A stretch of 64,000 nt of DNA from Centroberyx gerrardi (taxonomy: Eukaryota; Chordata; Actinopteri; Beryciformes; Berycidae). The notes beneath the pieces were generated by a model. That model ran no database searches, was not told the origin of the DNA, and saw only the letters and a list, made by a program, of their open reading frames with translations. The position numbers and the translations under genes were made by a program. Positions within the stretch are counted from its first letter, which is position 1. Each line of letters begins with the position of its first letter. The DNA lies in contig NC_136019.1 of the NCBI RefSeq assembly GCF_048128805.1, forward strand, positions 11,642,905 to 11,706,904, given 5' to 3'. Below are positions 103-52,769 of the stretch, piece by piece.

Positions 103-105
<3 letters not shown>

Positions 106-15750: not shown

Positions 15751-15928
15751 TAGGGCTGGGTTTAAAAAACAAGCACAAGATTTAGAGAATGAGGAACCTA
15801 ACCACACTGTCCTACCCAACACATCTCACTACCTGAGCCCGAGCCCCACCCTACCTTACCACATTTTTCTCATTCAGCTTGGCCAATGCCAAGGAGCCAT
15901 GAGACTGCAACTTAAAAATACCCTTGAG
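15751..15928. other. Mosaic junction at the right edge of copy A
   Basis: Three short pieces are joined in order. 15751-15769 is the first 19 bp of the hAT-like element (tagggctgggtttaaaaaa). 15772-15879 matches 56527-56634, which in copy B lies about 0.7 kb beyond the end of the block. 15878-15928 repeats 15633-15683 from the block itself. The hAT fragment 15929-16755 then follows. The overlaps at the joins are only about 2 bp. Nothing here is coding. Confidence 0.8.
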
Positions 15929-16755
15929 TAGGGCTGGGTTTAAAAAATCGATTTTCCGATTCAAATCGATCTTCATTTGAATGATCCCATATCGATTCAT
16001 AAAATCCCGAGATCGATCTTTTAATATATGCCCAATATATCCCTGTAGAGTCTGTAGAGTTGCACAACTTGCTAGCGCCGGCTGCCGGCTATTTAGCCAT
16101 CTACTCACATCTGTCTGGCCGGCCGCTTTTATAGCTGAATGTCACTAAATATTCACACTACCAGAATTTGGTGGGGACAACAGAATTTTTGAATGAGAGT
16201 GACTGCGCATGTCTGGTAGCCTACATACTGGAGCAGACTGAAGTAAAATAACTAGACTCAGACTGTCTGTACGGGTAACAGGAGTCACTCCACTCCTCCG
16301 ATCTCACGATGGCTGGAAATAATGTCTGTAACCATAGTAACGTTTACTTCAGACCAATATTGCGGCTACCATCGCCTGTATTTTCAGTTTATTTGACACC
16401 AGTAACACCAGTAACCAGCGGCGTCAGTTTATCCATAAGATCTTAATAAACCGCCATTGACAGCGGCGTCATATTCTCTTTTTCCATCACAGGAACTTCA
16501 TACTTATAACAGCAACATTTGGGCTGAAGGCCGCAGAACTGGAACAACCGCAATGTTGAGGAAACAGACTGGATCGAAAAATTGAGAATATCTCACAACA
16601 CTTACCTCCGTCTCTTTCAAATTAAGGATGATAATGTTACGTAACATAACGAGTGTTGAGCCACGTAACAACCAGCTGTCCAGTCCCGTTCTGGTTCACA
16701 CTACTCGGACTAACCGAATCCGCTCTCAAATTCAGTATCAGTACCTGAATTTTTC
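15929..16755. mobile_element. Truncated hAT-like element (5' 0.83 kb)
   Basis: This matches 7173-8010 closely from the terminal TAGGGCTGGG up to cctgaatttttc, then breaks abruptly into unrelated sequence. There is no second terminus and no target duplication, so it was probably copied or joined as part of the junction rather than transposed. A small internal indel (near 16240) separates it from the 7173-9028 copy. Confidence 0.85.
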
Positions 16756-17002
16756 CACTGTAGCAGTTACTGCAGTGTAGTAAAGTAGTGCAGTATCAAT
16801 CACAAAAATGATTTATAATTTGATGTTTTTAGTTATCTGTTATGTATTCGTGAAACACACCCAACTACAACCTGACCTCATGCCAGATAACCAAAACAAC
16901 AAAAGAAGAGACTAAGTATTCAAATGAAATATATTGACAGTATGTGTACCCTCTTCTCAGTGTCTAGCCTACAGATCCTTTGTCAGCTAGTGCTGGGGCT
17001 TT

Positions 17003-17267
17003 CTAGGTCGCAGGGTCAGAGTAGTGATACCAGTGTGTGCGATGCTGTGCATATGCTGTGAGCTCCCTGATGCTGCCAGCTACGTCGGGTTCAGACTGCC
17101 TCTTGATTGAACCGAGACACGTGGCTGCAATGACGTCCTCCTTGGCTGGCCTGTCAGACTGGGCGCACGGGTCTTCTGGGACGGGGATCTTCAAAACCTG
17201 GCTCACATAAGGTGCAGGTCCTGGAACACGTGATCAAAGATGAGGTCCATCAACTCATCGACGTAAT
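17003..17267 (-). pseudogene. Unidentified coding relic
   Basis: On the minus strand an acceptor-like site (ttgttactccacag) is followed by a frame reading DYVDELMDLIFDHVFQD. A single-base shift at about 17217 then leads into a second frame reading SQVLKIPVPEDPCAQ and ending at a TAG at 17003. The two halves read like one protein interrupted by a 1-bp deletion, so a pseudogene or a relic of a domesticated transposon gene is suspected. A further acidic frame (reading MEEEEDEEDPGSA then a stop) lies upstream at about 17510-17560 and may be another exon. The family is not recognised. Confidence 0.3.
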
Positions 17268-17967
17268 CTGTGGAGTAACAAACACAGAAATCATAAGTTC
17301 CATTACAAGAGTGTACATCACATACTAGTGTGTAGCAAATTTGCAATTTTCATTTATAGATTACTTTATACTATAGTTTATACTTTATGACATTTGTATA
17401 TTTATTGAATTTTCATATTTACAAAGTTTTGTGTGTGCAATAAAAATGTGTGTTGGTAAACATACTGAAAGTTGGCTCAGGGGGTCGGCTAAGCAGACCC
17501 AGGGTCCTCCTCATCCTCTTCCTCCTCCATTAGGTCAAGACGGGTCTCCTGCATGGTCTCTTGGTAGGTGGGGAGGTCAGGCTAGGTTGTGGAGGAACAA
17601 AGGGGACAGCTGAAGATCCAACTCTGAAATCTCTGCAATCCAAAACTACATTACCACAAACTACAGCCCCAATAATTACTATGTAGTTGATTCTAAATGT
17701 CTCCAACACAGTCTCAAGGAAAATAGTACATTATAACCTCCAGAGAGGTAGTATTTCTTGTAGTGTCGTTGTTCAGGTTTTCTAGGTTGCCACAACCCCA
17801 GCTGATTACAAGACTAGACTTACAAGACTAGGTGCAAAGACAGAACGTGAAATGTTACATCTCATCAGCCAGTAACTCCCTTCCATTCATTTGGCGTTAG
17901 AAGTGAAATATTCATGAGTGACAAGAGTCCCTGATCGACAAAGTACTTTTCGAGTTTTGCCACGTTA

Positions 17968-18382
17968 CAGTTGCGGTTGTCTCGTGTAAGGAGATGTGTC
18001 CGCAAAGTGAGCCAGAGGAGCTAACCTTAGCTAGCGGCTAGCGCTAGCGGCTAACGCTAGATTAGCTTGCTGCAAGTGGCACTAGCCCCTAACCTTGAGT
18101 ACGTGTGTCCCAACGGCACCAGGTTAACGAGACGAGGTGCTCGTTTTGGCCGGCTGAGGTAGCCTACAACCGACTCTAGCTACACATGTTTTTGTCCCTA
18201 TTGCTAACTGTTGTCGTTGTGGCCAACAGGCTTCCTCGTATTCACAGGCCCGCATCTGTCTCATCAGGACTGGAGCTAAGTCGCTACCCGATGCTAATCG
18301 GACTGAAATACCATAAACTACCGTATCCATTTCTCATTCTCAAGTTATGTTAGCGGACACATCTCTCCACATAAGGCAACTG
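17968..18382. mobile_element. Candidate miniature inverted-repeat element
   Basis: Imperfect inverted ends face each other 415 bp apart. Left is cagttgc (17968-17974) followed by gagatgtgtccgc (17991-18003). Right is gcggacacatctc (18353-18365) followed by gcaactg (18376-18382). The two matched words and their spacing are conserved in both ends. The interior has a cluster of gctagcg/cgctagc motifs near 18030-18060. No clear target duplication was found, so the class is unknown. Confidence 0.45.
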
Positions 18383-18799
18383 ATTTAGCAACAAAGCATC
18401 ATAGAGTGTAAAATAAACAAGAACACAATGTCGCAAACAAGCAAATGGAACATAACTTTACACGTTAGTAAACCTTGACATGTTCTCAACAGCTGACTGT
18501 ACTTGGAATAAACTGTAAATATAATCACAAAGTGGCGACACTTACCGATTGCACGTTTGCTGTTGAGTCACGTCCAGTTAGGATAGATCCATCTTTCAGG
18601 TGCAGTTGATTGTTTTCTGGACATTTTTCCGTGCTAGGCTAAGCTACAGACAACAGGGTTTTGGTCTTCCGCATTCAGTTGCCGGGCACCACCCCGTCTA
18701 TTACGAGATTGGAAGAAAACATGAATGCTCTTAGTCCTATTTAGAACATGGGGTAGTGGTGCACTCTTGTGGCCGAAATGAGTATTACAACAACAAACA

Positions 18800-19190
18800 C
18801 TTAGAAAAATGAGCCTGACAAAAAAAAACTTTTTTTCCACCTGTTTTCCCAGATGGAAAAAAAAAAAAGTGAACTTAGAAAAAAATGATCCTGGCAAAAC
18901 TTTTTTTTTTTTCACCTGCCAAAACTTTTTTTTTCCACCTGTTTTGACAGATGAAAAAAAAAAAAAAAATTAACTTAGAAAAAAACGATCCTGGCAAAAC
19001 TTTTTTTTTCTTCACCTGCCAAAACTATTTTTTCCACCTGTTTTCACAGATGAAAAAAAAAAAATAATTAACTTAGAAAAAAACGATCCTGGCAAAACCT
19101 TTTTTTTTTTCACCTGGCAAAACTTTTTTTTCCACCTATTTCACAGATGAAAAAAAAAATTAAGGAACTTAGAAAGATTATCCTGGCACC
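18800..19190. repeat. Tandem repeat with alternating poly-T and poly-A runs
   Basis: About four units of roughly 100 bp, each starting acttagaaaaaaa-gatcctggcaaaac, followed by T runs, cacctgccaaaac, more T, ccacctgtttt-acagatg and an A run. T and A runs alternate within a unit, so each can fold into long hairpins. Flanking partial units extend to about 19290. Confidence 0.8.
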
Positions 19191-19647
19191 ACCTGTTCTT
19201 AAGTCATAAACACAGGAGAGAAAACAATTTAGATCAGACTTAGAAAATGGATCACCAGATTTTTTTTTTTTTCTCACTTGCCTCTCAGGGCTTCCGTAAA
19301 TGAAAGTCAAGTCAGAAGGATAAATTAAAATCACTCATAATATCTTCAATTATGTTGTGTTGTGTCTTTTTCCTTTTTGCTGAAGGGAGGGTAGTCGGAT
19401 TTATTTAGGAAAGCAGATGAGGATGAGGATTTGATTTTATTTAGATTTTTAATATTTTATTTCAGCATTTCGAAATAAATACTTGCATCAATGGCTTCTA
19501 AGTATGGTAGATAGTACATATGGTACAGCCCTCTTTGTATCAGGCCTTTATTTGTCCTCATCACAGTTTACAATATGCCCAATATGACAATTCTGAGAAA
19601 CAGAATACACGTGGATCTTTATAGCTAGTTATTAGTGATTTAACATC

Positions 19648-20100
19648 AGTGGTGGAATGTACATTTACTCAAGTACTGTGCTACAATTTTGAGTTACTTG
19701 TATTTTACTTGAGTACATGTATTCTGTTACTTATACTTATGCTTCACTACATTTCAGAAGCATATATTGTACTTTTTACTCCACTACATTCATCTGACAG
19801 CTGGAGTTACTTTGAGATTAAGATTTTACATACAAACCATATGTCAGTTTATAAAATACAATGAATTGTTAAGATTAACTGCCGACAACATTAAAATGCT
19901 CCTTACACATTTTTATATTAATAGTAAAATATATAATATAATATAACACCTTGAAAGGGTCCATTCTGCATAAGAAATACTTTTACTTTTGATACTTTAA
20001 GACATTTTGCTGAAAATACTTCTGCACTTTTACTTGTAAGTAAATTTTTTTATCTAAGTAATTTTTTTATCTGTACTAATGAGTGCATTACTTTTTCATC
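19648..20100. mobile_element. hAT-type non-autonomous dispersed repeat, right end lost
   Basis: It begins CAGTGGTGGAATGTACATTTA and has repeated tactccactacatt and ttactcaagtac-type words, later aatacttttacttttgatac. This composition is familiar from abundant teleost repeats that end in TTCCACCACTG. That right end is not visible before about 20110, so this copy is truncated or diverged. The family assignment is from memory of the pattern. Confidence 0.65.
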
Positions 20101-20931
20101 AACCAGCTCATATCTTCACTTTATTCCGCAACATAGCAGAAAGCAGAACACGAGTAAAGTTAAATGTGTCGTCTTAACTGTTACGGTTTTGAATGTTACC
20201 AATAGGATCAGTCCATAAATGTGCACACCTTCCTTCAGTCCAACTGAAATCTGAAAACACAAACTTTATCATACATTCTTCAATTTGTCCTGTCAACTAT
20301 GGTCAATTAAAAATACTTTTTTTCATCTCTAAGCCACATTTATTATGATTATATATGCACATTTACCTATCATATGGCCAAAATGCAGAAAACAATACAA
20401 GCAAACAATTGAAATATGAGATAAGATATAAGTCAAGTCATTTTAGCCTGGGTTCATTCCTTACATCAAAGCTGAGGTTGGTTAGTCAACTTCTCTGCAG
20501 TAAAAGTTGTGTTAAAGTTGTGGCAGCTGAGGTTTCTTGGATAACTGATGATTCTGTGTTGAAATCAGAGTAACACAGCATTTTTGATAAAAATCAGAAT
20601 TATCAGGACAATTGAGAATTATCGGGACCATGTGACGGTCAGCCAATCAAAAGCTGCGAAACATACACATGTGTGAATTATTCATGAGGGGGTGCAGTAG
20701 CACAGAACCACCTCCAGGGGCGCTGTGTTGATACACAGATTATACACAAAGTCTGGTAAATGTGAATTAGACAGACATTTGCGGATTTTTTGGAATTGAG
20801 CTCTCTACACCTATAGAAACACTTCTACACTTTTAGAATTAGCAGGACACTGACCCTGTCCTGCTAATCCGAAATGTCCGCCTAATGCTGGTACGTATTC
20901 ATATCAAATGTCTGCTTAAATCACAAAAACC

Positions 20932-20932
<1 letters not shown>

Positions 20933-20974
<42 letters not shown>
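20933..20974. repeat. (CA)n microsatellite
   Basis: A pure CA run of about 21 units. Confidence 0.97.
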
Positions 20975-20977
<3 letters not shown>

Positions 20978-22217
20978 CCCCAAAGTTACAAAGTTAGACA
21001 GACTTTTTTAAAAGAAATTTGTATTTTGCTCATCATGAAGATCTACTATTTCTTACATAAAGTATACAAAATTATAATGTGAGCTCACAGAATACACTTA
21101 TGTATGACAGTATAAATATATGTATAAATAAGCAAATTGACTGGATAATCATACAGGACATTGTTCTGATATCATACATTTCTTAATTACGATGGCTTTT
21201 GACTTACAGTATATCTGACTCACTGGGTTTTGCACATTTCTCTATCTATTGGTAAACATGGAGGAATTCATGTATGCACACACTTATCTTCAGAGGCAGT
21301 GGAGGTGTGACCCATCTAACTTTGTTAATGTGAACTAAATGATCTTTGATTAAAGCCCCAATCCATAATCACAGTATTATGCTCCTGCAGCTGCTACAAG
21401 GACTGAATGTATGTGAAACCTAAACATGAATTTCACATGCATTTTGAGACTATATAAAGGTGTTCATGTTTATGTTAAACAGAGCTGTATGTTGAGTAAT
21501 CGTGGGTTAGGCAAGCTGTAAAAGAGCTATTTCCATATTCCAAGACAAACTCCCCAAGGATCTGTGTGACTGGATCTGACATTTCTTACAGATAACTAAA
21601 TTCTGGATTGAGGCTTTAATTTAAACGTTGGGTAATGTATACATTAACCATTTGATAGACAAATGTGGTCTAGAGTTACACAAAAAGTCATGGGCCATGA
21701 TAACTATAAGATAAACTATAAAATATAAGGATACATTGTTGCTCAAGCATTCACACTGCAGCGATATCTGTGATCAGTTCCTCAGCAAACGAAGCGTCAC
21801 TGCAGGGAGCGACTGAATCCTCCCCGCCCCCTTCTTTCTTACAACTTTAATTTGATTGGTTGAAAATGTTTTATCTTTGCCTCTGCATCCAAAATAATCA
21901 CTCTGAGATCGAGCCAAAAATATAGTTATCGTTTTGGATGTTTTTATAGTTATCGTTGTAGTGGGAACACAGATATTGTATTTACTTAGAACAATTTAAA
22001 TCTTTTTATAGTTGTGGTTATATTTATAGTTTTCATTCTAGATGTGAATTGGCCTTTAAAGTCAATCATTCTAAAGTTATTTAGTTCTAAATGTTGCTAT
22101 AGCACATGGTATTCAATGAGGCAAATTGTATATATATTGTACATAGTGCAATTATTTTGGATGGACTATCTGGATATCCCACAGTTCAAATGATTTAAAT
22201 AATCATATTATTGTACT

Positions 22218-22223
22218 TTTATT
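22218..22223 (-). promoter_or_regulatory. Candidate polyadenylation signal of the triple-SEA gene
   Basis: AATAAA on the minus strand, about 390 bp downstream of the stop codon at 22611-22613. It is a plausible end for the last exon; other signals cannot be excluded. Confidence 0.35.
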
Positions 22224-22610
22224 TCTAGTATTGCCATATTATTTTCTTTTCATTGGACCAGGTGCTTAAAGCTGGCTGCATCCTGGATTGAGCTCATTCT
22301 GTCCTCTTGGTCCATCCCACAGTGCAACGTGTGTTCAGTGTTTTCCAACTGGCGTTCCAAGGCGTATGCTGTCATTTGCACAGTTGGATAGTGACTGAAA
22401 TCAAACCAGGAAGCCATCCTCTGAATGTGCCTGCTCCATTGTCCTTAATGTGTCTGGCCATTACAATTTAGAATTTAATATCTGGAAGTTATTCCCAAGC
22501 CATCAATGCTTGAGACCCTCACAAATCTCGTATTTTTAATGACAACAAAGTCCTTTCTCATACCAGTGACGGTGGCCATTGTCCTTTGACATTTATGTCT
22601 CCGCTGACAC

Positions 22611-25600
22611 TTATTGCTGGTTTGACAGTAGCCATGACAACGCCACCAAGAAGGATGCAGTGAGGAGACTGATCTTATGGCTTACTCCACTTGAAACCTC
22701 TGTAAATGAAGAAAGAAGAAAAAGAAACATGTATTTAAAAAAAGGGTGGTAAGTTTTTGCACTTTTTGATCAGGTAGTACTCAATATTGCTTACGCGTGC
22801 CATCCACAGAAACAGAGTTGGGGTCAATGTTGAAGGCTGTAATGCTTGAAGCTGCATTGATCAAAATATTTCCAATCTGGGTAGCATTAGGAACAGATGA
22901 GGCCGCGAAAGTAACGTCCATGTTATTGACGATTGATCCATTTCTGCAAATGGAATTACAGAAAAAAATATTGTTTCAATCATCATGACTTTCTGGCCAT
23001 TATTCGTTCATTCTAGCAAAGCTGAACATCAACAAATTACCTGAATGACACCACTGTCAAGGAGTTGAAGGAGGAGAACGCTGTTCTGTAAAGAGGCTCA
23101 AGCTGCAGGAATAAAAGCAAGTTGTAAGCATATTTATGTTGGCTATATTCTTAATGTTTTTTCCTTAGTCTTTTTAATTATACTATTTAATTTTCACATT
23201 ATTTACTTACACTATTTCATTTCCTTCTTTTCATAATTTTCTTTATTAGTTCTTTATTGACTACCACAGTAAAATTACAGAAGGGGAAGTGCACTGAGAG
23301 TGTATCTTTGTCCTTTTATATATAGTGATGGAGGGATGATTTTAAATTTTTTCTTTGAAACCCCAGCAACTGGAATCAAATCTATATTTTCAATCCTTTG
23401 AGCAATGAATGACCTGATCTCTTTGATATCAGAATACAATAGATGCTACCACAGGCTTCATTTTAAGTGGGAGACTTACCTCTGTTCTTATCAGTGTGGC
23501 TCGAGTTCCAAAAGCTGAAGATGATGAATCCAGCAGATCACTTGTAAATGTCTCAGCAGATGAGAAACTGACCCGCCTCGAAGTGAGTGCTACTGTAGTT
23601 GTAGCTGTAGTTGTAGTTGCAGCAGCTGTGGTGGCAGCAGGTGTGGTTGCAGCAGCTGTAGTGGCAGCAGCTGTAGTTGCAGCAGCTGTAGTGGTAGCAG
23701 CTGTAGTGGCAGTAGCTGTGGTTGCAGCAGCTGTAGTGGCAGCAGCTGTAGTGGCAGCAGCTGTAGTGGCAGCAGCTGTGGTGGCAGCAGCTGTAGTGGT
23801 AGCAGCTGTAGTGGCAGTAGCTGTGGTTGCAGCAGCAGTGGTTGCTGTAGTTCCATTGTTTGAAAATGCTGTGAAATGTTTTTTTCAAGAATAAATTAGT
23901 AATAGCTTGCCCTTACATTGTGAGTATATCAATAATGCATTGTACTCTCATGTCCAAGGCAAAAAGATGCCTGATGTCATATAGACCTTGATGCCAGTTC
24001 CACAGTGCTGCACGCTGCATCAAAACAATACTGAGGAAGAGAATTGCTTTTGCAAACTAGGAAGCGTCTTATCTAATTCTGAGTTTGCTAGTGTCAAGAA
24101 TCTTGAAGTTAGTCACAAGCTAGTGGCAAGCCGTTCTACTAAATGGCTGTTCTTGAGAAATTCTGTTATTCATTAACTTTTCACTGCCATAGTGTTTGAG
24201 TGATGTTTCTGTAATTTCTTTATTGTTACGTGGTTACTGTGTTTTTATGTGTGGTGTTGTTGTTTGTGATGGATTTTGTTGCAAACCAAATTGCCCTCTG
24301 GGATTATAATAAAGACTAAACTGAACTGAAGCAAATTCATTGAATGCAAGATATTTTACAGAATAGCTAATCCTGCCACACATTGAGCTGTTGAAATGGT
24401 GTGGTGAACTGTATAATACTGAACAGTGTGACAGATGTCTTTTTGTATCTGGTCCCTAAGCTACATCCATTTCACATTTACCAGCATAGTTTTGTTCCCA
24501 ACTTTTCAGTTCAGGCAATTATTTAAAATTCTGTTTCAAATAATGAGTGGAGTGAAATTTAGCCTCATGTGTTAACTGTTAACTTACCTGTTACTTGGAG
24601 GGAGTTGGGCTCAATAGTGAGGTTGAAGGTATTGTTGGGGTTATTCACAGCTTCTCTCACAGCCTCTATAATGGTATCACTCTGTGGGATAGCTTCAACT
24701 GGAGTAGTCCTATTGAACTCAATCCCCACATTTGCTTCAGTGTTATTAGTTCGTGTTCTGGCTCCAGCAGCGCTGCATCACAAATGCCAATATCATAAAG
24801 TCAAGAGTCAAATTATGAAAATAATAAATTATATTGATAACTTCTTCAAATATGTAACTTATAGGTGACGTACAGATATAGCTAACTTATTCATTATCCA
24901 CATAGAAACATATATTTACTTATGACAGGCATGTTAGCTAATGTCAGACAGAGACTTTAAAACAAGGTAGAATTTGAAGTTTACCTAAATGATATAACGA
25001 AGCTGCGGACGAAGAGAGCACCAAATCTTTCACTGAAGATTATATCATACTGTAAGAAGAAAAATGCAAAAATTAGACATATTGAGTGGATTTCAAATAC
25101 AATATTCTCCAAATGAAATCAAATGGAATGGTAAATTTCATGTGAAATTACATCCGCATTAGAATGATTTGTTTTTCAGTTGCAATGAACAGTGTAATGA
25201 TTTGCTTAACAAAACAACACCAACAAAACAATGAAATTATTCTTACCACACGAACAACTGTCACTGCAAGATCTCTGAATTGTTGGCTCATGGGGTTATT
25301 GAGTTCTGATGTGAACGGAACTGCCAAGGTTGATCTGAGAACTGCAACTGGTGCAGGAGCTGTTGTAACTGCAGCTGTGGTGGCAGCAGCTGTGGTGGCA
25401 GCGGCTGTAGTTGCACCAGCAAGCGTGCCATCCACAGAAACAGTGTTGGTGTCAATGTTGAAGGCTGTAATGCTTGAAGCTGCATTGATCAAAACATTTC
25501 CAATCTGGGCAGCATTAGGAACAGATGAGGCCGCGAAAGTAACGTCCACGTCACTGATGATTGATCCATTTCTGCAAATGGAATTACAGAAAAAAATATT

Positions 25601-28600
25601 GTTTCAATCATCATGACTTTCTGGCCATTATTCGTTCATTCTAGCAAAGCTGAACATCAACAAATTACCTGAATGACACCACTGTCAAGGAGTTGAAGGA
25701 GGAGAACGCTGCTCTGTAAAGAGGCTCAAGCTGCAGGAATAAAAGCAGGTTGTAAGCATATTTATGTTGGCTATATTCTTAATGTTTTTTCCTTAGTCTT
25801 TTTAATTTTAAGTCTTTTTAATTATACTATTTCATTTTCACATTGTTTAATTACACTATTCCATTTCCTTCTTTTCATAATTTTCTTTATTAGTTCTTTA
25901 TTGACTACCACAGTAAAATTACAGAAGGGGAAGTGCACTGAGTGTATCTTTGTCCTTTTATATATAGTGATGGAGGGATGATTTTTAATTTTTCCTTTGA
26001 AACCTCAGCAACTGGAATCAAATGCCATCCCATAAGAGACACAGGCATTCCACTGTATGATCCAGCATTGTGAAGCAGAAAACAACCTATACCCATTAAG
26101 GCGTACTGAAAAGACCAAGTATAAGACTACCTAGCAAGAACGGTAAAAGTGGAATTAGGCTTGGAAAAAAATGGGCAATTCTGAAACCTGAATATATTGA
26201 AAATGTCTTGCTAATAGTTTTTGCCAGTGAAACAATATAGCCCAAAGTGAATAGAGAGGGTGAATGCTATTGCAAACTAGATTGAAATTTGATTTGAAAT
26301 TTTATACTGTCACATACATTTCTTGAATTTCCACTCCATTTAGATTGGTGTAGACTTAACACCAAAATCCCAAATAAATGTATTTTGACACTGACAAAAA
26401 TGATTGTTGGAAGATGAGTACATCATGAATGAAATTAAAAGAAGGCTTATTGTAGAATATTAGGTAGTTATTAGATATCTTAAGACATTTGTGTACTAAA
26501 AAAACATTATTAGGATACAGCAATCTATATTTTCAATCCTTTGAGCAATGAATGACCTGATCTCTCTGATATCAGAATACAATAGATGCTACCACAGGCT
26601 TCATTTTAAGTGGGAGACTTACCTCTGTTCTTATCAGTGCGGCTCGAGCTCCAAAAGCTGAAGATGATGAATTCAACAGATCACTTGTAAATGTCTCAGC
26701 AGATGAGAAACTGACCCGCCTCGAAGTGAGTGCTACTGTAGCTGTAATTGCAGCGGCTGTGGTGACAGCGGCTGTTGCTCCAGTTGTTGACGCTCCAGTT
26801 GTTGACCCAACAGTTGTAGTTGATCCACCAGTTGTGGTTGACCCACCAGTTATGGTTGACCCACCAGTTGTGGTTGAGCCACCAGTTGTCGTTGAGCCAC
26901 CAGTTGTTGTTGATGCACCGGTTGTTGTTGAGCCTCCAGTTGTTGTTGATGCACCGGTTGTTGTTGATCCACTGGTTGTTGTTGAGCCTCCAGTTGTTGT
27001 TGATCCACCAGTTGTCGTTGATCCACCAGTTGTCGTTGACCCACCGGTTGTTGTTGATCCACCAGTTGTGGTTGACCCACCAGTTGTGGTTGAGCCACCA
27101 GTTGTCGTTGAGCCTCCAGTTGTTGTTGAGCCACCAGTTGTTGTTGACCCACTAGTTGTTGTTGATGCACCGGTTGTTGTTGAGCCTCCAGTTGTTGTTG
27201 ATGCACCGGTTGTTGTTGATCCACTGGTTGTTGTTGAGCCTCCAGTTGTTGTTGATCCACCAGTTGTCGTTGATCCACCAGTTGTGGTTGACCCACCAGT
27301 TGTTGTTGACCCACCGGTTGTTGTTGATCCACCAGTTGTTGTTGACCCACTAGTTGTTGTTGATGCACCGGTTGTTGTTGAGCCTCCAGTTGTTGTTGAT
27401 GCACCGGTTGTTGTTGACCCACCGGTTGTTGTTGATCCACCAGTTGTCGTTGACCCACCAGTTGTGGTTGACCCACCAGTTGTGGTTGAGCCACCAGTTG
27501 TCGTTGAGCCTCCAGTTGTTGTTGAGCCACCAGTTGTTGTTGACCCACTAGTTGTTGTTGATGCACCGGTTGTTGTTGAGCCTCCAGTTGTTGTTGATGC
27601 ACCGGTTGTTGTTGATCCACTGGTTGTTGTTGAGCCTCCAGTTGTTGTTGATCCACCAGTTGTCGTTGATCCACCAGTTGTCGTTGACCCACCAGTTGTT
27701 GTTGACCCACCGGTTGTTGTTGATCCACCAGTTGTCGTTGACCCACCAGTTGTGGTTGACCCACCAGTTGTGGTTGAGCCACCAGTTGTCGTTGAGCCTC
27801 CAGTTGTTGTTGAGCCTCCAGTTGTTGTTGATCCACTGGTTGTTGTTGAGCCTCCAGTTGTTGTTGATCCACCAGTTGTCGTTGACCCACTAGTCGTTGT
27901 TGATGCTCCAGTTGTGGTGGATCCACCAGTTGTTGTTGAGCCTCCAGTTGTAGTTGATGCACCAGTTGTTGTTGAGCCTCCAGTTGTCGTTGACCCACCG
28001 GTTGTTGTTGAACCTCCAGTTGTTGTTGACCCACCAGTTGTCGTTGACCCACCAGTTGTAGTTGATCCACCGGTTGTTGTTGACCCACCAGTTGTTGAGC
28101 CTCCAGTTGTCGTTGACCCACCGGTTGTTGTTGAACCTCCAGTTGTTGTTGACCCACCAGTTGTTGTTGAGCCTTCAGTTGTCGTTGACCCACCAGTTGT
28201 GGTTGACCCACCAGTTGTAGTTGATCCACCAGTTGTGGTTGACCCACCAGTTGTAGTTGATCCATCAGTTGTCGTTGAGGCTCCAGTTGTCGTTGATCCA
28301 TCAGTTGTCGTTGATCCACCAGTTGTTGTTGAGCCTGCAGTTGTTGTTGACCCAGCAGTTGTTGTTGATGCTTCAGTTGTGGTTGACCCACCAGTTGTTG
28401 TTGAACCTCCAGTTGTTGTTGAGCCTCCAGTTGTTGTTGAGCCTTCAGTTGTCGTTGACCCACCAGTTGTGGTTGACCCACCAGTTGTCGTTGATCCATC
28501 AGTTGTCGTTGATCCACCAGTTGTCGTTGAGCCTCCAGTTGTCGTTGACCCACCAGTTGTTGTTGATGCTTCAGTTGTGGTTGACCCACCAGTTGTTGTT

Positions 28601-31550
28601 GAACCTCCGGTTGTTGTTGACCCACCAGTTGTTGAGCCTTCAGTTGTCGTTGACCCACCAGTTGTGGTTGACCCACCAGTTGTAGTTGATCCACCAGTTG
28701 TTGTTGAACCTCCAGTTGTTGTTGAGCCTGCAGTTGTTGTTGACCCAGCAGTTGTTGTTGATGCTTCAGTTGTGGTTGACCCACCAGTTGTTGTTGAACC
28801 TCCAGTTGTTGTTGACCCAGCAGTTGTTGTTGAGCCTTCAGTTGTCGTTGACCCACCAGTTGTGGTTGACCCACCAGTTGTAGTTGATCCATCAGTTGTC
28901 GTTGAGGCTCCAGTTGTCGTTGATCCATCAGTTGTCGTTGATCCACCAGTTGTCGTTGAGCCTCCAGTTGTCGTTGACCCAGCAGTTGTTGTTGATGCTT
29001 CAGTTGTGGTTGACCCACCAGTTGTTGTTGAACCTCCAGTTGTTGTTGACCCACCAGTTGTTGTTGAGCCTTCAGTTGTCGTTGACCCACCAGTTGTGGT
29101 TGACCCACCAGTTGTAGTTGATCCATCAGTTGTCGTTGAGGCTCCAGTTGTCGTTGATCCATCAGTTGTCGTTGAGCCTCCAGTTGTCGTTGACCCACCA
29201 GTTGTTGTTGATGCTTCAGTTGTGGTTGACCCACCAGTTGTTGTTGAACCTCCGGTTGTTGTTGACCCACCAGTTGTTGAGCCTTCAGTTGTCGTTGACC
29301 CACCAGTTGTGGTTGACCCACCAGTTGTAGTTGATCCACCAGTTGTTGTTGAACCTCCAGTTGTTGTTGAGCCTGCAGTTGTTGTTGACCCAGCAGTTGT
29401 TGTTGATGCTTCAGTTGTGGTTGACCCACCAGTTGTTGTTGAACCTCCAGTTGTTGTTGACCCACCAGTTGTTGTTGAGCCTTCAGTTGTCGTTGACCCA
29501 CCAGTTGTGGTTGACCCACCAGTTGTAGTTGATCCATCAGTTGTCGTTGAGGCTCCAGTTGTCGTTGATCCATCAGTTGTCGTTGATCCACCAGTTGTTG
29601 TTGAGCCTGCAGTTGTTGTTGACCCAGCAGTTGTTGTTGATGCTTCAGTTGTGGTTGACCCACCAGTTGTTGTTGAACCTCCAGTTGTTGTTGAGCCTCC
29701 AGTTGTCGTTGATCCACCAGTTGTGGTTGACCCACCAGTTGTAGTTGATCCATCAGTTGTCGTTGAGGCTCCAGTTGTCGTTGAGGCTCCAGTTGTCGTT
29801 GATCCATCAGTTGTTGTTGATCCACCAGTTGTCGTTGAGCCTCCAGTTGTCGTTGAGCCTCCAGTTGTTGAGCCTCCAGTTGTCGTTGACCCACCAGTTG
29901 TGGTTGACCCACCAGTTGTTGTTGATCCACCAGTTGTTGTTGAGCCTCCAGTTGTTGTTGAACCTCCAGTTGTTGTTGACCCACCAGTTGTCGTTGACCC
30001 ACCAGTTGTAGTTGATCCACCGGTTGTTGTTGACCCACCAGTTGTTGACCCACCAGTTGTTGTTGAGCCTTCAGTTGTCGTTGACCCACCAGTTGTGGTT
30101 GACCCACCAGTTGTAGTTGATCCACCAGTTGTTGTTGAGCCTCCAGTTGTTGTTGAGCCTGCAGTTGTTGTTGACCCACCAGTTGTTGTTGATGCTTCAG
30201 TTGTGGTTGACCCACCAGTTGTTGTTGAACCTCCAGTTGTTGACCCACCAGTTGTTGTTGAGCCACCAGTTGTTGTTGATCCACCAGTTGTCGTTGACCC
30301 ATCAGTTGTTGTTGAGCCACCAGTTGTCGTTGACCCACCAGTTGTCGTTGAGCTACCAGTTGTGGTTGACCCTCCAGTTGTCGTTGAGCCTCCAGTTGTT
30401 GTTGACCCACCAGTTGTTGTTGAGCCACCAGTTGTAGTTGACCCACCGGTTGTTGTTGATCCATCAGTTGTTGTTGAGCCTCCAGTTGTTGTTGATGCTC
30501 CAGTTGTGGTCGATCCACCAGTTGTTGTTGAGCCTCCAGTTGTAGTTGATCCACCAGTTGTTGTTGACCCTCCAGTTGTCGTTGACCCACCGGTTGTTGT
30601 TGAACCTCCAGTTGTTGTTGACCCACCAGTTGTTGTTGAGCCTCCAGTTGTTGTTGAACCTCCAGTTGTGGTGGATCCACCAGTTGTTGTTGAGCCTCCA
30701 GTTGTAGTTGACCCATCAGTTGTTGTTGAGCCACCAGTTGTTGTTGAGCCACCAGTTGTGGTTGACCCACCAGTTGTAGTTGATCCATCAGTTGTCGTTG
30801 ATCCACCAGTTGTCGTTGAGCCTCCAGTTGTTGTTGAGCCTCCAGTTGTCGTTGAGCCTCCAGTTGTCGTTGACCCACCGGTTGTTGTTGAGCCTCCAGT
30901 GGTTGTTGATCCACCAGTTGTCGTTGAGCCTCCAGTTGTTGTTGACCCACCAGTTGTTGTTGAGCCACCAGTTGTAGTTGACCCACCAGTTGTTGTTGAT
31001 CCACCAGTTGTTGTTGAGCCTCCAGTTGTTGATGCTCCAGTTGTGGTGGATCCACCAGTTGTTGTTGAGCCTCCAGTTGTCGTTGATCCACCAGTTGTTG
31101 TTGAACCATCAGTTGTGGTTGATCCACCAGTTGTCGTTGACCCACCAGTTGTTGTTGATCCACCAGTTGTGGTTGACACACCAGTTGTAGTTGATCCATC
31201 AGTTGTCGTTGATCCACCAGTTGTCGTTGACCCACCAGTTGTCGTTGAGGCTCCAGTTGTCGTTGACCCACCAGTTGTTGTTGACCCACCAGTTGTCGTT
31301 GACCCACCAGTTGTTGTTGACCCACCAGTTGTCGTTGAGGCTCCAGTTGTCGTTGCCCCAACAGTTGTAGATGATCCACCAGTTGCTTGTGTGGTAGCCA
31401 AATCAAAGGCCACTATTTGTAAGGAATAGAAAGTGAATATGATTAAAATAATAATATTGCTTTATAGGACAATAGTCTTTCACTTCATGTCACATAGATC
31501 AACTTACCCACAAGAATTAGCAAAATGGATACGATTGGTCCAAAACCCAT
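22611..31550 (-). CDS. GPI-anchored mucin-like protein with TTTGGS repeats and three SEA domains
   Basis: Ten exons with GT-AG borders keep one open frame of 6159 nt (2052 aa): 31508-31550, 26623-31412, 25669-25730, 25247-25571, 24985-25049, 24588-24772, 23480-23868, 23041-23102, 22795-22943 and 22611-22699. Residues 1-24 are a signal peptide (MGFGPIVSILLILV then an A-F-D-L stretch). About 25-1570 is the six-residue repeat TTTGGS with G/A/D/E variants, a dense substrate for O-glycosylation. SEA1 is about 1576-1681, SEA2 1708-1822, SEA3 1918-2021; Thr/Ala linkers (TTAAA type) lie between. SEA1 and SEA3 keep an NGSI cleavage-type site; SEA2 lacks it. The last exon encodes SSGVSHK followed by a hydrophobic tail (ISLLTASFLVALSWLL) and ends six residues after it with no basic cytoplasmic tail, as in GPI-attachment signals. 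SEA domains are known to be held together after autoproteolysis in mucins; a surface-coat or shed-mucin role is inference. The start is the only ATG preceding a signal-like exon. Confidence 0.87.
22795..23590 (-). repeat. Intragenic SEA cassette duplication, unit 2 (SEA3)
   Basis: Exons and introns here match 25432-26730 closely, including intron text such as the acaggcttcattttaagtgg segment. Unit 1 carries about 0.5 kb of extra intron sequence (around 26029-26526) that is absent here. Confidence 0.85.
24225..24330. repeat. LINE 3'-tail-like fragment in an intron
   Basis: The segment ends attgccctctgggattataa, then taaagactaaactgaactgaa. This resembles the 3' ends of teleost non-LTR retrotransposons (a ccctctgggat...aataaag motif followed by a short repeat). 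It is only a tail fragment and the family is uncertain. Confidence 0.4.
25432..26730 (-). repeat. Intragenic SEA cassette duplication, unit 1 (SEA1)
   Basis: Partner of 22795-23590. The SEA exon reading LEPLYRAAFSSFNSLTVVSF (unit 2 has T for the first A) is identical but for one residue. Where unit 2 has a splice donor after GGCACGC, unit 1 reads on (GGCACGCTTGC) into a Thr/Ala linker and the next SEA domain. Confidence 0.85.
26820..31375 (-). repeat. 18-bp coding minisatellite (TTTGGS), about 250 units
   Basis: Units on the plus strand read ccaccagttgttgttga with third-position variants (gtcgtt, gtggtt, gtagtt; ccacca, gcctcc, ccatca). The 18-bp length keeps the frame. Some units are 15 bp (TTGGS). 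Units are organised into higher-order blocks of 11 units (198 bp), seen for example at 27156-27353, 27354-27551, 28686-28883 and 29331-29528. The array carries no stop in several frames on both strands, so long antisense frames here are not genes. Confidence 0.97.
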
Positions 31551-31656
31551 CCTGTCTTCTGTTGATTCTATAAAATTAAACACCACAGTGACCAACATGC
31601 AAAACCAGCATATAAATCAAAAGCCTCTACAACATGTTGGTAGAGTCAACATTTAC

Positions 31657-31662
31657 TTTATA
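31657..31662 (-). promoter_or_regulatory. Candidate TATA box of the triple-SEA gene
   Basis: TATAAA on the minus strand, about 107 bp upstream of the start codon. An acceptor-like site (ttaattttatag) 18 bases upstream of the ATG could instead mean that a separate 5' non-coding exon exists, in which case the promoter lies further away. Confidence 0.3.
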
Positions 31663-31940
31663 ATGATAGTATGGAATCTATGGCACTTATAGCATTTTAA
31701 CATAGTATATGCTGTGATATCATGCTGTCATATCCTATATTAAAATCCATAAGCAAAAGTTGTCCGGATCATATTTCACTTACAGATTTAGAATATTAGT
31801 AACCCAAGAACTCTCCTTACAGTATCAAAAATGATAGCAAACACCTGGTTCATCAAAAGTAGTTTGTTTTGATCAACAGAATTAGATTTTTTTTTTTTTT
31901 GAAATGGTCCTATGCATGTGCTATTTTCAATCGGCACATG

Positions 31941-31961
31941 AACCCTAACCCTAACCCTAAA
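31941..31961. repeat. Short telomere-like repeat
   Basis: Three tandem CCCTAA hexamers (aaccctaaccctaaccctaa). This is too short to indicate a telomere or fusion point. Confidence 0.9.
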
Positions 31962-32460
31962 CTTGGCATGTTAAGAGTTTATTTTCTTTGAGCACCTATA
32001 ATTCAAGGGTCAATTTCGACGACCACCTGCTTTATGCCACTGTAAAACCTTCTAAACCCAGAATGAAACTACAGATACACATGAAGAGGTAGGGCTTGGT
32101 GGGAAAACCACCTTATCAGGGTACATGTGTCCCTTACTCATATTAATTCCTACGCAGAACCATATATTTTTAGATAGTATACTGTGGCATACGGGAATGA
32201 GGCTTTGACTTTTTCTTTTTCTTTATCTCTAGCTTTGCTTTGGTATAGAAATTTGACTTTCTCTTTGAAGTCCTGGTGGCCTGACAAAATGGTTAAAAGA
32301 AGCTGGATTTGTTTCATGTCTGGCTCATACAATATAAACATGTGCACATTGAGGTACTGTTTCCTGGTTTGAAGAAAATTGAAGAAACTATGGTCACCCT
32401 ACAACAGAAGTCCCATAGAGTTCAATTTATAGCATCTCTGATGAATGGACAATACACAGT

Positions 32461-32758
32461 CAAGGGCGGATATTTCATTTCACTGTTGGGGGGGACAATA
32501 AACAGAAAAATTTCTCAAGAGCAATTCCTGAAGGGGACACCAAAGATGCCGCCAAAAGTACTGTTGTATTAAATGTATATAGAGGTCCATTATGAAACAT
32601 TTCCATAAGCACTTCATTCCTTTCTTATGAAGATTTTATCAAATTGCCTTTGATATTACTGGGGTCTTTCTACTTGGCGTTTCGGTGCACTGAAAAATGA
32701 TCGGATGTCTGTTTTTCTTTTCTCTGCCATTTTAACTGACCTGGCTGGCTGACAAATA

Positions 32759-32803
<45 letters not shown>

Positions 32804-33794
32804 CATGCAGGTTATTTACAGTAGTAGGTGAGATGCAACACCCATTAACTGAACTAAAGCTAATATATGCCTAATTAGATTTTGTTTTCCCGAAAAAGCA
32901 GATCTCTAATGTTTTGCTGTCAATGTGTAAAAGTCCAGAACGCTATGAAGCCTGCCAGAAACGTACTTATATTTAACATAATGTTTGTTGTAATTATGTC
33001 TTTTTTATTAAGTCTTCATTTATTTCCAAAATTATGAACAAAATAACATAGTGGCAGCCATTTTACATGCAGTAAGAAAAAAATAATATACTTAGAACCT
33101 AATTACATAGGGTAAGTTAATCTTAAATAATTTTGATATGAAAACCCGCATTTTAATTTAACCAAGTATCCTGTATCATAAATACATGTCTGGCATTTGT
33201 AACAAACCAAACCGCTTGAAAATCGGTCGAAAATTCAGCGAGTTATGATGATTTTAATTGTGGACAGACCTCCTGCCTCCATACACATACATGCATTAGG
33301 AGACGCGGCTCCGTACCAACACGCTGACGCACGAGATTCAACCGCGAGGTAACGGAACAAAATGTAGTCTGATTACAATTGTGAATGTGTTTTATTCTAT
33401 TGAGTGGTAGAAGTAAAGAAAAATGTCTGACACATCCTTTGTTTTAAGTTAACCTCAGCTACTTACTGGAGGTCTGCCACCACTGACACACTTCCAGAGA
33501 TCCTCCACACACACTCGTACAGAGGGCTAATGTGTGTGTGTGGGGGTTCGGGGAGGCAGGTAGGCAGTGGACCAAACCACTGTGAGGCATATGAGAGAGG
33601 GACTCAATCTTTCGAAACTTAAAAACGCATTGTTTTGCGTCTATAATTAGCACAAGTGCTTTCAATGCATATTATTATATTATTTAAAATTATATAGTTA
33701 TGTTTACAATGATATATTGAGGGGGACAACTCTCTGTTAGTCCCAGGAAGGGGGGGTCCGGACCCCCCTGTCCCCCCCGTGATTTCCGCCCCTG
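32461..33794. mobile_element. hAT-like non-autonomous element
   Basis: Left end CAAGGGCGGATATTTC and right end (reverse complement) CAGGGGCGGAAATCAC form imperfect inverted termini. Each is followed by a G-run (ttgggggggacaataaac on the left; acgggggggacag on the right, as complement). The flanks tacacagt (32453-32460) and tacacaat (33795-33802) are an 8-bp target duplication with one mismatch. No transposase frame is present. It contains a CA run at 32761-32802. Confidence 0.75.
32761..32802. repeat. (CA)n microsatellite
   Basis: A pure CA run of 21 units inside the hAT-like element. Confidence 0.97.
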
Positions 33795-35364
33795 TACACA
33801 ATCATTAATTTAGGCTGCTTTGCTGCTTCAGTATCTCAGTGGCATAAACTGATGCCATCTCATTCCAGGATCTAAAGGCATAAAAAAGTTGTATCTATTC
33901 TAGATTTTTATACTGGGTGGGACTGAAAATGGGACTCAGAGAAACTAGATACCAATAAAAAAGTACACCATATTACTTGTTAAATCAGTACAGGTATGAA
34001 ACTGCACTGCCTCTTTTTGCTTGCTTTTTCAGTTACCATTTAGCCCATAATGAGAGTCTCTGGTTGAAGAAGAATTACAGTTAATTATGTATTTGTCATC
34101 CAAACCTATATGTGAATAGCTGACAAGCTAGTTATCTGTGATATGATATGAAAGTAACAAATACGTTATATCAACTTACCTATGGGTTTAAAGTTGGACT
34201 GAAATAAAAGCAGAAAAATGGTTGTGAAAAGGCAATGCACAATTATGTTACAGGGTAAATCTTTTGTTTTCAATAATAATGAAATGACAATAATAAGTAA
34301 ATGTTATTCTGCCACCAAGTAATATAGGCCTTGCACAGTAGCTAAACAAAGAGGTGGCTCGTTAATAAGTTAAAAGTTATATGGTTATTTTACAGCTTCT
34401 ATTTGACTCAGCTAATCAGAATTGAAGATTAGATCTATCCGGTTCATGAATGAAATTTATTTGTGGGATATTGCCAATAAAAGGTTGTAGGAAAACAGTG
34501 CACCGCTTACTGTAATTTAGGTGTATCATTAAACTGCAAATTATACTGAATTGTTTGAATTCAGCCAATTGGGTGTCAATTGTGGATATGCACAGCAAAT
34601 CCAGTTACGGATTCCTTGAAATGAATATTCATTTCTTAGGTGAACATTCCCTTTCAAACTAAGCTGCTCTGAGTGGAGGATGTACAAATATTAACCGAAA
34701 ATGCTTTGATATAAATATTGTTTAAAAGTGCACACACTGGTAACACATTTCCAGATTCTAAACAAAAATAATGGTCATCAATTTCTCATTTCATTTGAAC
34801 TTGAATGTACTTGAATTTGAACCATTTATACTTTACTTTTGACTTATTACGAAAATGTCAATGAGATCAGATGGAATAAGCTGCAGTTAACGCATGACAA
34901 ATCATGAAGGATTAAATCATGATCTAGTCATAGTTGAAGCAATCACACTAATATAGAACATTCATCATCATTACCATTTTCTAGGGCTCTGTGATATGTA
35001 TTTTTTTTCTTCCTGTTTTTGTAATGTAATATTTCTTTCCTGTCTTGTTCATATGTGTCTGTCTTAAGAACGGATTGCTGTAAAATTCGGCTCAGTTTCA
35101 GTCTCTGCTGCTAGCACAAAGCTCAATTCAAGTCAAGTCAAATCCTGGTTGAGGTCTTATTCCAGACAGGCTGTTTGTCTGCTTCTTCATTCCCCACTCG
35201 CAAGAATCTCTGTCTACATGAAGAATATTAGAAAACGAGCTCATGCAGATACCGACAGTAGATGGAAGAAAGCGTATGCATGCCTCAGCTTCCCATTTCT
35301 CCTTATTGGGATAAGAGCGTATCCAGGTTATTGCTGATGGGATATGATGTCTAAATGCTTTAAC

Positions 35365-35495
35365 TGTAGTATAGTGAGTAAGGAGACTGCAGGATCCAGG
35401 TTCAATCAACGAGCATCTGCCCTGCTGAAGTGTCCTTGAGCAAGACACTGAATCCTTACAAGCTACAGAGGAGCTGTTGTCTAGCTGACACTGAT
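35365..35495. mobile_element. tRNA-derived SINE-like repeat
   Basis: The stretch has an A-box-like part (tagtgagtaaggagactgc) and a B-box-like part (ggttcaatcaa), then tgtccttgagcaagacactg, a phrase I recognise from abundant teleost SINEs. The family is not assigned. Confidence 0.5.
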
Positions 35496-38400
35496 TTTTT
35501 AATATCAATAATTATATCCAGAATGAACAGGATATTGGTGTACATGTAAATAATTGTGTTTTTATCATTTTGGTGAAAAAAAAAAGGCTCTTTGTGTCAT
35601 CATAAGCTCTCAAATTGTCTAAGTGAGTTGTAGCTACAGGATGGATGAAAAAAAAAAAAGAAATACATTTAAATTCTAAAGATAAGATATTAGGGGAAAA
35701 AAATAGTACATTAATAACAACATGTAATGTTAAATATATTATAATGAGACATTATTTACAATTAAATTAAAAAGTGAAGATTTGTAAAGATGAGGGTAGA
35801 AAAATCTGTTACCCTTCACTTTCAGCTATGGGAGAATATGGTGACACCTAAGAAATGCCATTTGATTTATCTGTTAATAAAATAAAATAAAATTTAAAAA
35901 AAGTAGAATATCGACATAAAGATGTACTTACCCAAAAAGAAAGTCACCGATTATAAATTCTGCTGTTTGACGTATTTCAAATTCGTATTCTTTTTTTTAA
36001 TACTATTTCCTGATATACCGATTTAATCCATTTTACATCTGTGGTGCACACCTTTTGTGGCAGGCCACAGTCAGGCCTTATATATTGTGCAGGGAAGGGA
36101 AGTGACGTGACGTGACAGACAGGTGATGACTTTTTTCAGAAATGGTTTCACACATTAGTGAAAGACAAAACAAAACAAAAAAAAGAAAAATCACAGGATA
36201 TAGGCTGTCAGTTACCAGCTCTGTCAGTTCCTTGGCTCAGTCCCATACCAGAGAGCCTTCCTTTGTTCTGCCCTTTAAGGTGTGTTGTTGATGCATTCCA
36301 CTTACGTGCCCTAACCAGATGTGTTATCTCGTGTCACAGGCTCGAGGAAGTTCCACCAAATGGGACAGTAAGTGATGGCATTATGGGTGCCAATCAATTT
36401 AATACAATAGAAATGTAACAAAATAAAAAGTAACAGGGAAAAAAGGTGTCTAATGTGATCCTTTCATCAAATTCCTCCAGACAAAGAACAAACCATGATG
36501 CTAACCATAAACCAACACAGCATCATTACTTCAGTCCTTAAATTTCTACTTGATGGATGATTATTTAATGTACAAAACTTATTTCCTGGACTCTTTCAAA
36601 ATCAGATGTTTTGAAAAAAAAAACAAATGGTGAAACTGCTCCTGTATTCAGCTGCCAACCTCAGTGTCAGTGGAAAATACAGAATTTTGAAAGTTGACTA
36701 ATGCAGCATGTGGGGAGTAAATTGAAGATTATCAATGTACAGATACACAGAAAATGAAAGGGAAACAATGGACAAGGCAACTCACTGATTATATAAAGCT
36801 AAGTTGAATATACAAATTCATTGAAATACTCAAACTTGACTGTCCTATTCCATAGAAATAACATAAGAAGTATAATTCCAATTTAGCTTTTCTTCTTTTC
36901 ATGAAAGCCGACATTGTCCTCCACATGCAGAGTGTGACCCTGTGACCAAAGCAGCCTATTGAATATGCATAGTAAAATGTGGCCAGTATTTTATTATTGT
37001 ATTTTAAAGTGGTAAATCCTCAAGATCTTTATTTTTTTATTTTGATGTCATCTTTGGTGCTAATTGATCACTTGTCAATCAAACAGTGTGTCCAGTACTG
37101 TGACGTCTTTTTTCCTTGGATTTCCTGTTGAAGTTTGAGTTTGTGTGGGCAGCGCTCTTTTCTTCGTCTGTTCAGTCATTATGGCTGTCGCTGCTCATGC
37201 TAATTACCCAGTTCTTCTGTTTATTTCAAACAAACCGCTGTTGCTGCACTGCAGGAAACAGAAAATGCATCACTTCATGTGTGTCAGAGGATTTTTCCCG
37301 GGAAAGACCTACCCGACCCGAACAGCCAAGTGGACATAGGCTGAATCATTCGGCGATAGAGTGAAATGGACATTTATTTCTATGAAAATGTCACTGATTA
37401 TTACTTTAAAACTCCTTTAGTTTTTAATTTGAGTATATATTAATTATTTGCAATGAATGTACGGAATTGGATAGAAAACAATAATTCAAGGGACATCGGT
37501 GCAACTGCAATTTTCTTTCTCCTCTCTCTCATTTGAAGGTCATTGCAAGTCATGGATTTTAGTTTGGTGATAAACCAGTCTTGATAAAACCTTGACTTGT
37601 AAAATACTCACACAAAGAGAAGGCAACAACATTGTTTCCTTCAGTCTGACCTGAGTATCGAATCCAAATTTAGCATCGACTCAACCTGTTTTTAGATTGT
37701 AAATCGTAGATTATGAGATGTCTTTGGTAGGCAGGGGTTACTGCAAGTTTATGTCCAAATACTTTCATACAGTACCTGGTGTGTCTGTACGTCACCTTCC
37801 CAGCTCAAGACAATAAAGCACCAGGATATATTTTTATTCTGTGAAGGAAGTAATGACGGGTTTTTTTGCAGCCTCAGAGCCAACGGTAAACACTTCCTCC
37901 TTTGTTCTCACCTGATGGGATCTTGAGATATGGCTCTGAATCCCACTAAAGATCTGCTGTGAGAAATGTTATAAGATGCCTAATGCTTGTCATGCACATT
38001 AACAATAAAATGGGAAACTCAAGTATTCTGTATAAGAGATGTATCATAAGCTCATATCCCAATCATAGAAAACCAGGATATGAAAGCTGTGACTTCTGCT
38101 GTTGCAAAGACATTATGGCATTGGTTGTTGTTTGTAGTCTGTAGTACATTTTGTTTCCGTGCTAATGTTAAGAACATTTTCTTTAACCATCTATACACGG
38201 CTATTTGTGATCAGGATGTGAAGATACATATGGATCATCCTTAACACGACCTTAACAAGAATATGATTTAATATATGGAATACTGCTTGTAAATGTTAAT
38301 ACACTCACTGGGTTCAAAATATTTATTTCCTTAGTGCACCTATATAGATCAAAAGCCTCGGGCTCAGGATCAATTGACTGCCAAAATCCTGTGGATTGAG

Positions 38401-39242: not shown

Positions 39243-39268
39243 CACACACACACACACACACACACACA
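39243..39268. repeat. (CA)n microsatellite
   Basis: About 13 CA units; the copy A counterpart is about twice as long. Confidence 0.95.
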
Positions 39269-52750: not shown

Positions 52751-52769
52751 ATCGTACATTTCTTGCATA

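Follow-up and report, generated by a model that had tools for sequence, protein, structure and literature searches.

A predicted GPI-anchored mucin with three SEA domains in Centroberyx gerrardi, with SEA modules that suggest diversifying selection

We describe a gene of the fish Centroberyx gerrardi that, by its sequence, is an intact cell-surface mucin gene, lying in a window of 64,000 nucleotides (the whole stretch of DNA that was analysed, C23:11642905-11706904; positions below are window coordinates unless a contig is named). With a probability of about 0.55, its product would be a GPI-anchored, self-cleaving and sheddable surface mucin, the SEA modules of which evolve against a changing partner.

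The target gene occupies 31550-22611 of the minus strand. Its ten exons, rebuilt one by one, join into a single frame of 2052 codons plus stop, which runs from the ATG at 31550 to the TAA at 22611 with no stop other than the terminal one. All nine introns are GT-AG, and the 2052-aa product contains no cysteine. This agrees with the ten-exon model of the sequence-only reading, which had been proposed to be in frame from signal peptide to stop. A C2H2 zinc-finger ORF at 62501-63424 of the window is a neighbour of the gene. The parts of the gene are as follows.

Exon 1, 31508..31550, minus strand: start codon and signal peptide (MGFGPIVSILLILV...); the tandem paralogue, copy B, has a like exon.
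Exon 2, 26623..31412, minus strand: 4790 nt, with the TTTGGS-type array (~254 units with 0.0% Pro), followed by the N-terminal portion of SEA1.
Exon 3, 25669..25730, minus strand: middle of SEA1 as far as the cleavage motif.
Exon 4, 25247..25571, minus strand: remainder of SEA1 with (FR)NGSIIS, Thr/Ala linker and start of SEA2.
Exon 5, 24985..25049, minus strand: middle of SEA2, highly variable between modules.
Exon 6, 24588..24772, minus strand: remainder of SEA2, with a loop longer by ~11 residues in place of the G-S motif.
Exon 7, 23480..23868, minus strand: Ala/Thr linker (ATTAA-type units) and N-terminal part of SEA3.
Exon 8, 23041..23102, minus strand: middle of SEA3.
Exon 9, 22795..22943, minus strand: remainder of SEA3 with (FR)NGSIVN.
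Exon 10, 22611..22699, minus strand: GPI-type tail of 29 residues, QVSSGVSHKISLLTASFLVALSWLLSNQQ, and stop; the tail takes its first base from exon 9.
AATAAA, 22218..22223, minus strand: possible polyadenylation signal ~390 nt past the stop, one of eight AATAAA/ATTAAA hexamers in 22610-19500 (3.1 kb).

The array of about 250 TTTGGS repeats noted earlier is borne out by two counts, 254 units (171 being STTTGG) in a pattern match and 256.3 copies of an 18-bp unit by Tandem Repeats Finder (26798-31390), and the spacing between unit starts is exactly six residues in 246 of 255 cases. Because the array is also open in two other frames (1567 aa on the plus strand and 1518 aa in a second minus frame), an open frame by itself is little proof that it is coding. 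Support for the sense frame comes from variation by codon position, with amino acids kept and silent sites varying: over the 246 six-residue units, diversity is 0.012, 0.087 and 0.337 at positions 1, 2 and 3, and the codon after Ser encodes Thr in 246 of 246 units while being spelled ACA (122), ACG (68), ACC (37) or ACT (19). An antisense gene in the plus-strand ORF of 1567 aa was considered and rejected, as the pattern of variation across codon positions agrees with the minus-strand sense frame. The 1548 aa between residue 25 and SEA1 are composed of 49.4% Thr, 17.2% Ser (66.6% Ser+Thr) and 27.8% Gly, with Pro and Cys both at 0.0%, so that the array has the Thr/Ser part of a mucin PTS domain and lacks the Pro part. 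The classical Pro/Thr/Ser mucin domain is rich in proline, whereas this one is proline-free and glycine-rich, and the array exon (1596 aa) matches no Pfam family at E 0.1.

The three SEA domains with Thr/Ala linkers that had been read downstream of the array are each recovered by profile search: scanned singly, SEA1, SEA2 and SEA3 score 35.2, 28.5 and 34.6 bits against a Pfam cut-off of 26.4, and SEA is the sole Pfam family above its own cut-off in the C-terminal 495 aa. As in membrane-bound mucins, they sit between the array and the inferred anchor tail. SEA1 and SEA3 are near-copies of each other. Across the translations of target and copy B, the cleavage motif FRNGSI is kept in all four SEA1/SEA3 modules and is present in none of the five SEA2 modules. 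The G-S in the beta2-beta3 loop that characterizes self-cleaving SEA domains is accordingly found in SEA1 and SEA3, and SEA2 has no G-S and a loop longer by ~11 residues. Among solved structures the best match of SEA1 is ADGRF1 (E 1.7e-6), the FRNGSI loop being common to both; PDB chain 8hc0_B, a separate 57-residue ADGRF1 chain comprising the N-terminal SEA half, ends at FRNG. SEA2 has a weak match to TMPRSS11D (E 0.016), and a profile of eight SEA sequences has a weak match to MUC1 (E 0.25). The linker between SEA2 and SEA3 (23612-23836) is a run of ATTAA-type pentapeptides with a 15-bp period. Antifreeze glycoproteins consist of long runs of the Ala-Ala-Thr tripeptide; the Ala/Thr linkers are superficially alike, but their period is five residues and not three, and an antifreeze glycoprotein was rejected.

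That the molecule is shed, as had been suggested, is plausible, since SEA1 and SEA3 carry FRNGSI like the ADGRF1 SEA domain with its self-cleavage motif. For ADGRF1 and ADGRF5, the available part of PMC6954182 describes autoproteolysis with GSVVV or GSIVA and cleaved SEA halves that remain joined until force is applied. The corresponding motifs of the target, GSIIS in SEA1 and GSIVN in SEA3, are near but not identical to these. The FRNGS motif doubles as an N-glycosylation sequon (NGS) at 25562-25570 and 22934-22942 of the minus strand, an overlap also seen in ADGRF1, and glycosylation could for this reason compete with SEA cleavage. The analogous cleavage site of MUC16 was found uncleaved in one study, according to the part of PMC4456727 at hand. 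Given the motif differences, the sequon overlap and the MUC16 precedent, cleavage in the target may fail.

The C-terminal tail is best read, from its sequence, as a GPI signal. By inspection, small residues (SSG) that could form an omega site are followed by a short spacer and then by a hydrophobic stretch of 16 residues (mean Kyte-Doolittle of the best 16 residues, 2.1); a Lys precedes this stretch and no basic residue comes after it. The tail exon is identical in copy B (0/89 nt differ). On inspection, the 29-aa tail and its counterpart in the paralogue are consistent with the earlier prediction of a GPI-anchored surface mucin. A transmembrane exon after SEA3, the structure named beforehand as speaking against this prediction, was sought in 22794-16500: five hydrophobic frames there follow an AG, all with a pyrimidine fraction below 0.7, so that a transmembrane segment with a cytoplasmic tail is provided neither by the model nor, in this interval, by any other exon with a good acceptor. 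The hydrophobic stretch stops four polar residues short of the stop codon, which is not ideal for a GPI signal and would suit a second explanation, namely the same mucin without GPI, its C-terminus being a short transmembrane anchor, or being cleaved so that the protein is secreted. The neighbouring SEA mucin described below, which by eye seems anchorless right after its SEA domain, points in the same direction. A length of only ~16 hydrophobic residues with Lys in front and nothing basic behind, the small residues at the plausible omega site and the failure of all five alternative exon candidates to offer a good acceptor argue against this explanation, which we hold to be unlikely. The further suggestion of a gel-forming molecule is unsupported, and a gel-forming mucin was rejected: the 2052 residues include no Cys, no VWD or CK match was found, only SEA exceeds its cut-off in the C-terminal 495 aa, and the array exon is without a Pfam family at E 0.1.

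Examination of the flanks (60 kb to the left of the window and 140 kb to the right) and of the genome assembly (778.9 Mb in 278 contigs) placed the gene in a tandem duplication, in which about -37609..15879 (53 kb) matches 20944..56634 (36 kb). The whole-genome DNA search with the SEA region gave at least 18 matches and the protein search at least 22; all 18 and all 22 fall in C23:11607104-11669640, in the target and its tandem paralogue, copy B, and among the matches listed the SEA region is found only in these two genes of this genome. The Pfam SEA profile at E 0.001 has three matches elsewhere in the genome, one on C21, which by eye we take to resemble IMPG2, and two lying near each other on C22; this search did not return the target, in which the SEA domains are intron-split. 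The 100 kb of right flank beyond the window contain no further copy, all tblastn matches having E > 1.

Copy B lies outside the window, ~53 kb leftward of the target, and runs from an ATG at -21411 to a stop codon whose last base is at -35982 (C23:11606922-11621493). It comprises 19 exons with GT-AG introns that encode, in order, a like signal exon, an array of ~73 units, three extra SEA2-type modules, an array of ~220 units, SEA1-SEA2-SEA3 and the same tail. By homology it has six SEA modules versus three in the target; five of the six score above the Pfam cut-off and one reaches 25.1 versus 26.4 bits (an identical pair was scanned once). Its frame is broken once, in the first array exon; from the third exon onward an uninterrupted frame of 2268 codons leads to the stop. 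Three SEA modules, SEA3 of the target (600 nt) and two of those extra in copy B (426 nt each), consist of three exons that together make up whole codons and are flanked by phase-1 introns. Gain or loss of such a module would therefore keep the reading frame intact; SEA1 and SEA2, in the target, have exon 4 in common.

The two units could also be two haplotypes of one gene with allelic variation in SEA number, misplaced in tandem by the assembler. Their non-coding divergence is only 12/3059 and 7/2371, which falls in the range of allelic variation. However, the 164 kb examined contain no N, the units are separated by ~5 kb outside the duplicated block (15880-20943), and target and copy B differ structurally, all of which makes misassembly rather unlikely; if it were true, the selection result given below would stand, as allelic diversity. 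An 842-bp element, possibly a mobile element, occurs with 98% identity at 7169-8010, within the broken copy of the neighbouring mucin, and at 15925-16755.

The duplication also includes a neighbouring Thr/Ser-rich SEA mucin, present in two copies (window 1-15879 and 39195-56634) that are ~98-99% identical in the matched pieces. In the right copy, at ~52581 to 39822 on the minus strand, 3860 codons form an open frame, and the left copy is broken into pieces; both genes of the left unit have broken frames and both of the right unit are open. The SEA domain of this mucin scores 50.5 bits (39822-40250, minus strand), and its cleavage loop retains an NGSV motif. Directly after it the C-terminus, read by eye, is NTDRQNN plus stop, with no anchor apparent, and the protein may be secreted.

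The co-duplicated neighbour provides an internal reference for the rate of change in the SEA exons of the target and copy B. For the latter, four SEA1/3 modules and five SEA2 modules (four distinct, two of the five having identical coding sequence) were compared, with 18 nonsynonymous and one synonymous change in the first group and 27 and two in the second. Pooled, nonsynonymous changes affect 45/511 sites (8.8%), synonymous changes 3/167 (1.8%) and intron changes 27/1598 (1.7%), with P 9e-4 for nonsynonymous versus synonymous and P 1e-12 for nonsynonymous versus synonymous plus intron; these are counts of changes over few, closely related modules with a shared history. Each group alone gives P 0.02-0.03 for nonsynonymous versus synonymous, and 45 nonsynonymous out of 48 changes under five transition biases, from 1 to 10, gives P from 0.001 down to 3e-5. 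The same excess appears between target and copy B over SEA1-3 (15 nonsynonymous and one synonymous, at ~750 and 252 sites, versus 11/1790 summed over seven in-gene introns), a comparison which, like part of the pooled one, uses a copy B that is possibly non-functional given its frame break. Within the target, SEA1 and SEA3 differ by 12 nonsynonymous and one synonymous change, and their introns by 9/472.

The changes are unevenly placed. The three SEA2 exons differ at 14/105, 12/65 and 3/185 positions (sums counted by hand), and the introns at 5/197 (the first, between exons 1 and 2), 2/212 (the second) and 6/718 (the third); change is thus concentrated in exons 1 and 2, with the intron between them conserved. 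In SEA1/3, codons 65-68, four in a row directly after the cleavage site, each have an amino-acid change. Variable residues show a non-significant tendency to lie on the exposed helix face (P 0.097). In the neighbouring mucin, copy versus copy, SEA exons 2 and 3 have 0/65 and 0/146 differences, the stretch with the first SEA exon has 1/144 (an Ala/Thr change), 1111 nt of the large exon have no nonsynonymous and two synonymous changes, a further 1320 nt have five differences, and the introns have 2/532, 0/87 and 3/413. Since this co-duplicated gene has no nonsynonymous excess, the excess in the target SEA domains is not a property of the locus.

Taken together, these sequence comparisons suggest that the SEA domains are under diversifying selection, in the manner of an arms race. 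In an ordinary SEA mucin under weak constraint, chance or unequal gene conversion might produce a similar amino-acid excess, given the small numbers, with three synonymous changes in total, and several modules that are near-identical by recent duplication or conversion. However, conversion is hard to reconcile with an intron that is conserved between exons diverging on both sides of it, lost constraint would bring exon rates to the level of intron rates and not above it, and the pooled P is at most 0.001 under all five transition biases. We regard this explanation as the least probable of those considered, and favour diversifying selection.

A mechanism for the favoured reading, a sheddable surface mucin with SEA modules under selection, can be proposed as follows. 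The Thr/Ser/Gly repeat of ~1550 residues (67% Ser+Thr) would be a continuous substrate for O-glycosylation, and dense O-glycans would turn it into a long brush held by GPI on the outer leaflet. SEA1 and SEA3 would cut themselves at the Gly-Ser of FRNGSI during folding, with the halves staying non-covalently joined, and the brush could then be stripped off by pulling or by a bound parasite or microbe. SEA2, which has no such site, may serve as an uncut spacer or a recognition module. Array length and module number would shift by frame-neutral duplication, and diversifying selection would act mainly on the N-terminal part of SEA2 and on the residues just past the SEA1/SEA3 cleavage site. Such selection is most simply explained by contact with a fast-changing partner, for instance a pathogen adhesin or protease. 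The gene would thereby supply a renewable, sheddable decoy coat.

The SEA changes could instead be driven by sperm-egg coevolution and not by pathogens, the protein belonging to gametes or the egg coat. Exons that diverge beyond their introns, as found here, also mark reproductive proteins. Mucins usually guard mucosal surfaces, for which reason we favour a pathogen over a gamete as the partner; moreover, no egg-coat domain was found, only SEA reaching its Pfam cut-off, and we consider a gamete role quite unlikely. In the available portion of PMC3680472, a sea urchin sperm protein is partly behind the name SEA, a point in favour of the gamete role. The sheddable decoy coat, which we prefer, has a precedent in cell-surface mucins that act as releasable decoys, as stated in the accessible text of PMC6491460.

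A wider interpretation is offered tentatively, as one that may well prove wrong: the SEA domains could be the hypervariable recognition part of a GPI-tethered, proline-free brush, in which cleaving and non-cleaving modules are duplicated frame-neutrally and driven apart by positive selection to yield a rapidly renewed decoy repertoire against parasites or microbes, or gamete recognition surfaces. SEA domains are usually seen as modules for cleavage and force release in surface proteins. In the target and copy B, tandem genes with three versus six SEA domains and almost identical introns, they seem to be the fastest-changing part. If the interpretation is true, SEA domains gain a fast-evolving recognition role, the locus offers a natural series of SEA variants for tests of cleavage and binding, and the MUC16-like multi-SEA design exists with a terminus of the GPI type. 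The lack of proline in the array also suggests how searches tuned to Pro/Thr/Ser-rich domains could miss such genes.

Comparison with known systems places the target closest in layout to the multi-SEA mucins. Gel-forming mucins (MUC2, MUC5) share with it only a long Thr/Ser-rich domain and differ in being Cys-rich with VWD/CK domains, whereas the target has no cysteine and no VWD or cystine-knot match. The ADGRF1 SEA domain is the best structural-database match of SEA1 and shares its FRNGSI loop, but belongs to a GPCR and not to a mucin. The single-SEA surface mucins (MUC1, MUC13, sea bream I-Muc) have the same succession of mucin stretch, SEA and membrane anchor (the last inferred for the target), with one SEA each versus three. 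In sea bream I-Muc and Muc13, the available part of PMC3680472 describes SEA next to a transmembrane domain and, together with Muc18, cytoplasmic tails of 26-52 aa; for puffer fish a single transmembrane mucin has been reported, as cited in the accessible text of PMC1552070.

MUC16 (CA125) resembles the target in that several SEA plus linker modules come after a long mucin region; in the excerpts of PMC1552070 and PMC10829539, multiple SEA domains with Pro/Ser/Thr-rich linkers follow the mucin region and SEA plus linker forms the repeat module. The target repeats this layout with three SEA domains and Ser/Thr-rich linkers after its predicted glycosylated region. It differs in its proline-free TTTGGS array, in the lack of cysteine and in its GPI-type end, where MUC16 has a transmembrane segment and a cytoplasmic tail (PMC4456727, in the part available). 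No MUC16 chain occurs among the PDB matches of SEA1, SEA2 and the SEA profile, which include ADGRF1, TMPRSS11D and MUC1. Among the open-access matches listed, judged by titles and the starts of abstracts, the architecture is not described. The earlier view that the architecture is new holds in part: the layout is that of MUC16, so far as the partial text of PMC1552070 goes, and the target is set apart by its GPI-type end, an array without proline and its lack of cysteine. Because it has neither a transmembrane segment nor the proline of a PTS domain, the target is filed not as a transmembrane mucin but as a variant of the SEA surface mucins.
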